Shown: positions 6,330 through 34,536 of the stretch, in pieces
How positions within the stretch are numbered: position 1 is the first letter of the stretch
How the letters are laid out: each line of letters opens with the position of its first letter
The notes under the pieces: generated by a model
The model's input: only the letters and a program-made list of their open reading frames with translations
Told to the model about the DNA's origin: nothing
Databases searched by the model: none
Position numbers and translations under genes: made by a program
NCBI RefSeq assembly: GCF_000299935.1
Contig: NZ_AMRL01000018.1
Coordinates: 1 to 64,000, forward strand
Source: Oceanibaculum indicum P24
Lineage (GTDB): Bacteria; Pseudomonadota; Alphaproteobacteria; Oceanibaculales; Oceanibaculaceae
Direction of reading: 5' to 3'
Length of the DNA: 64,000 nt

Positions 6330-6812
6330 GCAGCTTTATCTTGTAAAGTATGGTGACAAAAATCCGGTGGGGTCAACGGCGTAACTTCTCCTAGTCCACA
6401 GAGCAAAAATTAATTAGCATATCCACATGAACGCCGGACTAAACAAGACATATGAACCGCACAAGCCATGCCCACAGCTAAAGGCAGGCGAAATTTGTTT
6501 TGTAGTTGAGCAGTACAATGAAGGTAAAATTGAGCGTCTTTATCATGAACATGCCCCAAGGCGCAGGATGAGCCGCGATGCAATTGTTAGCACATTACGC
6601 TGCTTAAATGCCGCCACCACCAAAATGAGCTTAATTCAAATTATATCAGCACATCTAAACACTGCTGGAAAAAAGCCGGAAAGACATCCTGCCTTCAACA
6701 TCAGATCTGCATACATTGAACCTGGTGTGCAAAGATTATATTGCGGAACCAACACCGTATCTTGGGCAGATATTGTAATTAGTAAATCTCACTTCCGAAC
6801 ATAACAGTTACT
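6330..6812. other. AT-rich island between the importer genes and the GIY-YIG element
   Basis: About 480 bp is clearly AT-richer than the high-GC sequence on both sides, with runs such as ATTAATTAGCATATCC. It contains one open frame (6427-6804). The right edge coincides with the palindrome at 6815. The left edge is gradual near 6330. The composition suggests acquired DNA, or a relic trapped when the operon was split. Confidence 0.6.
6427..6804 (+). CDS. Hypothetical protein in AT-rich island
   Basis: A 125-residue frame beginning MNAGLNKTYEPHKPCPQ. I do not recognise a family. The composition looks protein-like: mixed charged and hydrophobic residues, no low-complexity runs, no membrane segment or signal peptide. 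No clear ribosome site precedes the ATG, so it may be leaderless, poorly expressed or a remnant. Its codon use is AT-biased, unlike all neighbours, which supports horizontal origin. It lies opposite in direction to the flanking importer operon and immediately upstream of the GIY-YIG element. Confidence 0.4.
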   Translation: MNAGLNKTYEPHKPCPQLKAGEICFVVEQYNEGKIERLYHEHAPRRRMSRDAIVSTLRCLNAATTKMSLIQIISAHLNTAGKKPERHPAFNIRSAYIEPGVQRLYCGTNTVSWADIVISKSHFRT

Positions 6813-6814
6813 TC

Positions 6815-7199
6815 GTCATGGTCGGGCTTGACCCGACCATCCATCCGGCGTTGCCGCAGGATGTATACGGATGCCCTATTACACCTACATCCTCGCCAGC
6901 AAACCGGGCGGCACGCTCTATATCGGCACGACCAACGACCTCATCCGCCGTATCCACGAGCATCGCGAAGCGGCCGTACCCGGCTTCACCAAACGCTATA
7001 AAATCCACCATCTCGTCTATTTCGAGGAACACGCCACCTCCGAGCAGGCGATCCGTCGGGAGAAACGTCTGAAGACCTGGTTGCGGATCTGGAAGGTGCA
7101 GTTGATTGAAACGGACAATCCGGACTGGAATGATCTGTATCCCTTACTGCTCTGAAGCTGCGCCTTCCGCTGTATGGTCGGGTCAAGCCCGACCATGAC
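6815..7199 (+). mobile_element. Candidate GIY-YIG nuclease element bounded by inverted palindromes
   Basis: The left end is GTCA followed by TGGTCGGG-CTTGA-CCCGACCA. The right end is TGGTCGGG-TCAAG-CCCGACCA followed by TGAC, an exact inverted copy of the left hairpin. Between them lies only the GIY-YIG gene 6871-7155. The other palindrome pairs in the window have the same layout with a short non-coding spacer instead of a gene. Reading this as an autonomous unit and the short pairs as its non-autonomous relatives is inference by analogy with RAYT/REPIN systems. No target-site duplication could be confirmed by eye. Confidence 0.45.
6871..7155 (+). CDS. Small GIY-YIG nuclease-domain protein (UPF0213/YhbQ type)
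   Basis: A 94-residue single-domain protein. The GIY-YIG landmarks are YTYILAS at residues 4-10 and TLYIGTT with the second motif at about 16-20. The catalytic-type arginine lies in LIRRIHEH and the metal-binding glutamate in AIRREKRLKTW. Length and layout match the COG2827/UPF0213 group, which has been linked to DNA nicking or repair functions. Its ATG lies only about 28 bp inside the left palindrome, so that hairpin could fall in the 5' untranslated region. The gene runs against the surrounding operon and is enclosed by inverted palindromes, suggesting it moves with, or acts on, these repeats. That is inference. Confidence 0.9.
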   Translation: MPYYTYILASKPGGTLYIGTTNDLIRRIHEHREAAVPGFTKRYKIHHLVYFEEHATSEQAIRREKRLKTWLRIWKVQLIETDNPDWNDLYPLLL

Positions 7200-7238
7200 G
7201 AGATATGTTGGAATGCAAGGAGCTTCCCATACTCCCTC

Positions 7239-7336
7239 GTCACCCTCGGGCTTGACCCGAGGGTCTAGGGGCGATGCCCTACCTGTGACGTCTCAACCCA
7301 CCGCGCCTGGATTGCCGGGTCAAGCCCGGCACTGAC
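7239..7336. repeat. Inverted pair of palindromes (REPIN-like), copy C
   Basis: The left hairpin is ACCCTCGGG-CTTGA-CCCGAGGGT after GTC. The right hairpin is TGCCGGG-TCAAG-CCCGGCA before CTGAC. The inner edges are TCTAGG and CCTGGA. It starts 39 bp from the end of the GIY-YIG element and stops 6 bp from the stop codon of the M81 peptidase gene, so it could act as that gene's 3' hairpin. Confidence 0.85.
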
Positions 7337-13266: not shown

Positions 13267-13365
13267 GTCACCCCCGCACTTGTTGCGGGGGGCCAGGGTT
13301 CAGCCAGCTGGATCGCTGCCAAGGCTAGCTGAAGCCTGGATTCCCGGGACAAGCCCGGGAATGAC
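13267..13365. repeat. Inverted pair of palindromes (REPIN-like), copy D with CTTGT loop
   Basis: The left hairpin is CCCCCGCA-CTTGT-TGCGGGGG after GTCA. The right hairpin is TTCCCGGG-ACAAG-CCCGGGAA before TGAC. The inner edges are CCAGG and CCTGGA. Both loops carry T instead of A at the last position, unlike the other copies, so the two halves appear to belong to one sub-family. It separates two convergent genes. Confidence 0.85.
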
Positions 13366-34459: not shown

Positions 34460-34536
34460 GTCATGGTCGGACTTGATCCGCCCATCCAGCGAACGGCACC
34501 GTCGCTCTGGACCCTCGGGTCAAGCCCGAGGGTGAC
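34460..34536. repeat. Inverted pair of palindromes (REPIN-like), copy E
   Basis: The left half TGGTCGGA-CTTGA-TCCGCCCA carries one mismatch in the stem. The right half ACCCTCGGG-TCAAG-CCCGAGGGT is perfect. Outer edges are GTCA and GTGAC, and inner edges TCCAG and CTGGA. It lies between the convergent MarR and oxygenase beta-subunit genes and may end both transcripts. Confidence 0.85.

Follow-up and report, generated by a model that had tools for sequence, protein, structure and literature searches.

Small GIY-YIG nuclease genes of one clade are mostly flanked by CGTC-type palindromes in Oceanibaculum indicum and other bacteria: a candidate REPtron-like system

Repetitive extragenic palindromes (REPs) of the CGTC superfamily are abundant in Alphaproteobacteria and also take in Neisseria dRS3 and Rickettsia RPE-4/6; they have a CGTC or TGTC tag, an 8- to 9-bp stem starting from AT, a 4- to 5-nt loop, and a CCA tail, form head-to-head dimers, and are situated mainly downstream of genes (Di Nocera et al., PMC3733652). 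In 2013 the superfamily was said to be without a dedicated transposase (Di Nocera et al., PMC3733652). A described system of similar build is the REPtron (REPIN-RAYT), in which a single-gene enzyme is flanked by inverted REPs, REPINs (paired REPs) are dispersed in the genome, and the enzyme is under purifying selection, its copies diverged rather than amplified. We analyzed a 64,000-nt stretch of Oceanibaculum indicum P24 DNA (contig NZ_AMRL01000018.1, positions 1 to 64,000; here, the window), in which a unit at positions 6815 to 7199 resembles the REPtron in all of these respects. It differs in that its enzyme is a GIY-YIG protein (PF01541) where RAYT is an HUH/Y1 enzyme, and its REPs carry the CGTC tag where RAYT-associated REPs carry GTAG. 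With the CGTC superfamily it shares tag, stem, loop, tail, and dimers, and the difference here is the tie to one GIY-YIG clade. We found no report of a GIY-YIG/REP link in the open-licence literature.

The unit opens with a CGTC-type REP on the forward strand (6815 to 6843; C of the tag at 6814, the unpaired tag reading TCGTCATGG... at 6813), continues with a 94-residue GIY-YIG nuclease gene on the same strand (6871 to 7155), and closes with an inverted copy of the left REP on the reverse strand (7171 to 7199), the two REPs standing head-to-head with the tag outermost. Arms 6813 to 6843 and 7171 to 7201 are 97% complementary across 31 nt with 327 nt in between, and each is a hairpin with a 9-bp stem (ATGGTCGGG) and a 5-nt loop (CTTGA/TCAAG); folding of three strands as single-stranded DNA gave −10.4 to −10.6 kcal/mol (z, −4.8 to −5.2). 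An earlier note on this DNA had called the hairpins exact inverted copies, which is true of stem and loop; the tails are not identical (ATCCA versus ATACA), with CCA present at 6843 and ACA in its place in the right copy. The same note had seen only the GIY-YIG gene between them, and 6871 to 7155 is indeed the sole domain-bearing open reading frame (ORF) there.

By their layout (GTC-AT..stem..CTTGA..stem..AT-CCA), their stem and loop lengths, and a predominance of pairs oriented plus then minus (head-to-head dimers), the window palindromes fit the CGTC-tagged REP superfamily, and 6815 to 7199 appears to be an enzyme-coding member of that family, a compact cassette between head-to-head hairpins. 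The left variant occurs elsewhere in the O. indicum genome, which holds 173 matches to GTCATNNNNGGGCTTGACCCNNNNATCCA (at most 3 mismatches; pattern including GTCAT) versus 0 for the reversed control pattern, and therefore the dispersal is not due to chance; genome-wide hairpin pairing was read from the output of this pattern search. No Y1_Tnp (PF01797)/RAYT domain was detected in the O. indicum genome, and we therefore rejected RAYT as an unlikely mover of its REPs.

A PF01541 search of 192 alphaproteobacterial genomes provided an unselected sample of 100 small GIY-YIG genes, ranked by domain score and chosen blind to repeats, each analyzed within a 20-kb stretch. Across these 100 regions, the density of strict CGTC hairpins was 1.8/kb in the first 100 bp from the domain, 0.97/kb at 100 to 200 bp, and 0.01 to 0.05/kb beyond 300 bp, and the reversed-sequence control gave 3 hairpin matches versus 101. 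A motif-free test (de novo inverted repeats scoring at least 14) found a bracketing inverted repeat at 46/98 GIY-YIG sites versus 4/352 random same-size sites from the same stretches. Of 17 head-to-head REP pairs with room for a gene between them, mostly 292 to 378 bp apart, 16 held a GIY-YIG gene, a fraction biased upward by the centering of the stretches on such genes. The strict enclosed arrangement of the window was found for 15/54 genes of clade A, the clade of the window gene, versus 2/9422 random intervals. Element length in other genomes is 344 to 429 bp, and both REPs of an enclosed pair are often one variant, though stems vary between genomes.

The association is confined to particular GIY-YIG subfamilies, which were first spotted by eye and afterwards placed on a maximum-likelihood tree (130 sequences, only 98 columns, inner forks weak). 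Clade A comprises 84 rows with support 99/96, and 45 of its 54 unselected alphaproteobacterial members are flanked by CGTC-type palindromes or an inverted repeat (CGTC-type hairpins on both sides, 20; on one side, 14; inverted repeat only, 11). The remaining small GIY-YIG genes, outside clades A and C, are flanked in 0/28 cases (Fisher P = 2e−14 versus clade A), an internal control that argues against a generic effect of small intergenic genes. Sister subclade C (18 rows, 99/91) has an inverted repeat at 14/18 sites, mostly a different palindrome, TCATCCTGAG..CGAAGGATGA. The expectation in the earlier note that most UPF0213-type GIY-YIG genes would lie within palindromes is borne out for clade A and for subclade C and fails for the other small GIY-YIG genes. 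Subclade C proteins carry the signature ..RRPV..AERQIKGWSRAKKEALI.GD.., and their dispersed palindrome takes the form CTCATCCTGAGC-TTG-TCGAAGGATGAG, along with longer-loop forms, at loci that include L103, L114, L117, L118, L130, L137, L146, L157, L159, L160, and L174.

A clade-A profile run over 150 genomes of the phylum supplied a second set of 26 fresh loci; 24/26 were flanked, among them 9 of the 10 loci outside Alphaproteobacteria, and hairpin density was 2.9/kb near the gene versus 0.20/kb further off. Homologues in Hymenobacter, Acidobacteriaceae, Planktothrix, Aeromonas, Neisseria gonorrhoeae, and an Elusimicrobiales genome are surrounded in the same way, and in these sequences the pairing recurs across many bacterial phyla. 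At the genome level, at least 10 REPs were present in 32/56 genomes with clade A versus 10/136 others (odds ratio, 16.8; P = 4e−13; computed on genome counts uncorrected for shared ancestry, most families being represented by one or two genomes), with median REP counts of 11 and 1, respectively. This excess is seen in all four genome-size strata, and a genome-size artifact was rejected on that basis. The analogy with REP and RAYT and the linkage of gene and palindrome, both put forward in the earlier note, are strongly supported by the 45/54 and 24/26 flanked loci and by the fact that clade A predicts REP abundance; a lack of excess flanking palindromes, which that note had said would count against it, is not what clade A displays.

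The product of 6871 to 7155 matches PF01541 at 55.3 bits (cut-off, 22.6) and retains conserved catalytic-type residues (Y6, Y17, G19, R27, and E64, with the Tyr/Tyr/Arg/Glu set among them), which do not vary among the representatives aligned. Its AlphaFold2 model (pLDDT, 92.5; input alignment leaving out two rows from plasmid records) has UPF0213 BH0048 and Slx1 as closest folds (top structure match 1zg2; E, 1.6e−4; TM, 0.59), with I-TevI a weak match. UPF0213/YhbQ-type proteins (PDB 1zg2, 1ywl) are alike in size and fold; unlike the window gene, the UPF0213-like rows of our tree, so labeled by likeness to YhbQ, fall outside clade A and have no palindrome flanks. Values of dN/dS (nonsynonymous to synonymous substitution) of about 0.06 to 0.2 in five pairs indicate that the clade-A gene is under purifying selection. 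A role in a defense system was considered and rejected, with no credible PADLOC match.

Related strains differ in whether they carry the cassette. Azospirillum lipoferum has a REPIN-GIY-REPIN arrangement between sufB and sufC (L207, 2880 to 3386), where A. ramasamyi, A. oryzae, and strain B510 (95 to 97% identity around the site) have sufB-sufC without a cassette, and Shinella sp. PSBB067 carries a GIY cassette with another REP type at the same junction (L218, 866 to 1290). Among Sphingobium strains, the site is filled in TomTYG46 and TomMM15, holds one hairpin in TomTYG64 and TYG74, and has no cassette in TYG72 and TYG65; Sinorhizobium K101 has a single hairpin where S. meliloti Ak57 carries the cassette. 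In G003, a congener of the window genome, the orthologous intergenic region contains a perfect solo hairpin (GTCACCCTCGGGCTTGACCCGAGGGTGAC) and no GIY gene. The empty sites in relatives that the earlier note had anticipated were thus found in Azospirillum, Sphingobium, Sinorhizobium, and this congener.

A solo hairpin (G003:C2:384933-384961; L219:631-657; L224) joins two outer halves, one from a left REP and one from a right REP. By pattern, symmetric solo hairpins GTCA..TGAC number 0 in the window genome, 4 in G001, 4 in G002, and 16 in G003, the last including several of one mismatched type; one mismatched-half solo in G003 joins GTCACCCTCGGG and CCCGACTATGAC. Because some solos have mismatched halves, deletion between two hairpins is indicated. 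These comparisons establish presence and absence of the cassette, and at each site the difference may reflect either gain or loss.

Elsewhere in the window, four other inverted REP pairs recorded in the earlier note are all real and have short non-coding spacers. These short-spacer REPINs, each with its left half on the forward and its right half on the reverse strand, lie at 1690 to 1718 and 1771 to 1799, at 7239 to 7267 and 7308 to 7336 (directly downstream of the GIY-YIG unit), at 13267 to 13295 and 13337 to 13365, and at 34460 to 34488 and 34508 to 34536. The loop is not common to all of them, as that note had it, since both halves of the 13267 to 13365 pair have CTTGT. Their spacers are, by eye, unlike the inner ends of the GIY-YIG unit, and we did not adopt the idea that they are internal deletions of it. 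Just upstream of the unit, ORF 6427 to 6804 (125 residues) has AT-rich surroundings (43% GC versus 65% for the window), no Pfam match, and no counterpart at the orthologous site of G003; it is possibly a foreign insert beside the GIY-YIG unit.

Further loci extend the range of repeats seen beside such genes. In Bacteroidota, Acidobacteriota, and Alphaproteobacteria, GIY-YIG genes (L046, L059, L060, L133, and L260) stand beside palindromes of the form GTCATTGCGAG..GAAGCAATC(C/T) or GTCATTCCGA..GGAATCT, which show the GTCAT..ATC end pattern in a variant with an internal loop. A Planktothrix plasmid (L209) has its GIY-YIG gene among TGTCATTCTGAGTGAAACGAAGAATCT repeats, between an MmeI-type restriction-modification gene and DISARM drmA. 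In Neisseria gonorrhoeae (L203), a clade-A gene lies among dRS3 repeats, classed as CGTC-1 REPs by Di Nocera et al. (PMC3733652).

We consider it probable that the clade-A gene and its palindromes work together much as a REPtron does, with the GIY-YIG enzyme acting on REP hairpins so that the DNA they bound is spread or maintained. The nuclease would recognize the REP hairpin or cruciform in single-stranded or extruded DNA and cleave at or beside it; repair or replication would then copy the hairpin-bounded DNA, REPIN or gene, to a new place. The short-spacer REP pairs would be non-autonomous relatives with the same hairpin ends as the GIY-YIG unit, and the result would be a REPtron with GIY-YIG replacing HUH/Y1 chemistry. 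Hairpin binding, cleavage, and copying, and the dependence of the short pairs on the enzyme, are what we infer from the genomic pattern. We propose only tentatively the broader possibility that the two related GIY-YIG clades may be dedicated mobilizers of two widespread palindrome superfamilies, the CGTC REPs and the TCATCCTGAG..CGAAGGATGA type, which would then form a class of mobile DNA in bacteria relying on hairpin recognition and GIY-YIG chemistry, with no HUH, DDE, serine, or tyrosine transposase.

Several observations weigh against a REPtron-like system. Palindromes abundant in genomes lacking the gene, named in the earlier note as a reason to doubt the association, occur in part: 10/136 genomes without clade A are REP-rich (at least 10 REPs), among them congener G001 and four further genomes that exceed 30 REPs, and congener G003 has many REPs without a GIY-YIG gene. 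A re-search of apparent exceptions found a clade-A gene in G029, G052, G164, G128, G011, G048, and G066, and 6/7 clade-A genes found in such genomes were flanked; G030 has a fragment with stops, G170, G075, and G069 have weak or other-subfamily matches only, and no clade-A gene was found in the REP-rich genomes G001, G003, G044, G081, G082, G092, and G181. Conversely, 5/56 clade-A genomes score zero REPs with a pattern that misses some REP classes. Neither target duplication nor an exact insertion junction could be read at the filled and unfilled sites because the intergenic flanks have diverged. Finally, a recent burst of the GIY-YIG gene was sought among within-genome paralogues and none was seen; those sampled are only 30 to 77% identical, and the gene has therefore not been recently amplified. 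RAYT genes behave alike, the gene itself not being the recently multiplying part.

One alternative is a homing element, in which the gene copies only itself through cuts at allelic palindrome sites followed by repair, while REPs multiply otherwise and are a mere target niche. GIY-YIG is a classical homing-endonuclease fold, and the match to I-TevI, weak as it is, points the same way, as do the single hairpins found in the position of the pair at unfilled sites (Sphingobium TYG64 and TYG74, Sinorhizobium K101, and G003) and the sharing of the sufB-sufC junction by cassettes with different REP types in Azospirillum and Shinella. Free-standing GIY-YIG homing endonucleases of the I-TevI type, known from phage and organelles, likewise have this catalytic core and are small selfish genes present or absent at a site. 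The window protein, however, has 94 residues, no separate DNA-binding domain, and no intron, and its gene lies between hairpins of a dispersed type that is found without the gene as well. The mismatched solos of G003 resemble heterodimer deletion scars more than ancestral targets, and homing alone would not account for the tie between REP abundance and clade A; we regard this explanation as unlikely. Less plausible still is a housekeeping nuclease that resolves REP cruciforms or stalled structures and owes its retention to the presence of REPs, its own REP linkage serving dosage regulation. The branched-DNA nuclease Slx1 is among the nearest solved folds and the gene is under purifying selection, but inverted-REP enclosure, spread across phyla, and insertion inside operons such as suf are left unexplained, which makes this account improbable. 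Intergenic sites are permissive for insertion and REPs lie mainly downstream of genes, yet the idea of incidental linkage, in which REPs are terminators or insertion-tolerant spacers that gather next to small intergenic genes of every kind and are functionally unconnected with the GIY-YIG gene, is strongly disfavored by the random intervals (2/9422), by the reversed sequence, and by the other small GIY-YIG families (0/28 flanked versus 45/54 for clade A), and with subclade C mostly paired with another palindrome and a genome-level odds ratio of 16.8, it is very improbable.

CGTC REPs are among the commonest alphaproteobacterial repeats and occur in other phyla too, and their spread has been unexplained since 2013; the clade-A GIY-YIG protein offers the first good candidate for an agent that spreads them or lives off them. 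The REPs were already known, and the system to which we liken ours is REP-RAYT; the enzyme family and its clade-specific pairing are what we did not find in the open-licence literature. Now that a particular small enzyme, one that can be expressed, is named together with its cognate DNA, the question becomes a bench test. Should the enzyme prove to be no more than a homing nuclease or one that processes hairpins, a poorly characterized protein clade is still tied to a defined DNA substrate. If it does mobilize REPs, bacterial repeats would gain a transposition chemistry that had not been attributed to them before, and mobility by GIY-YIG chemistry, if demonstrated, would be categorically new.
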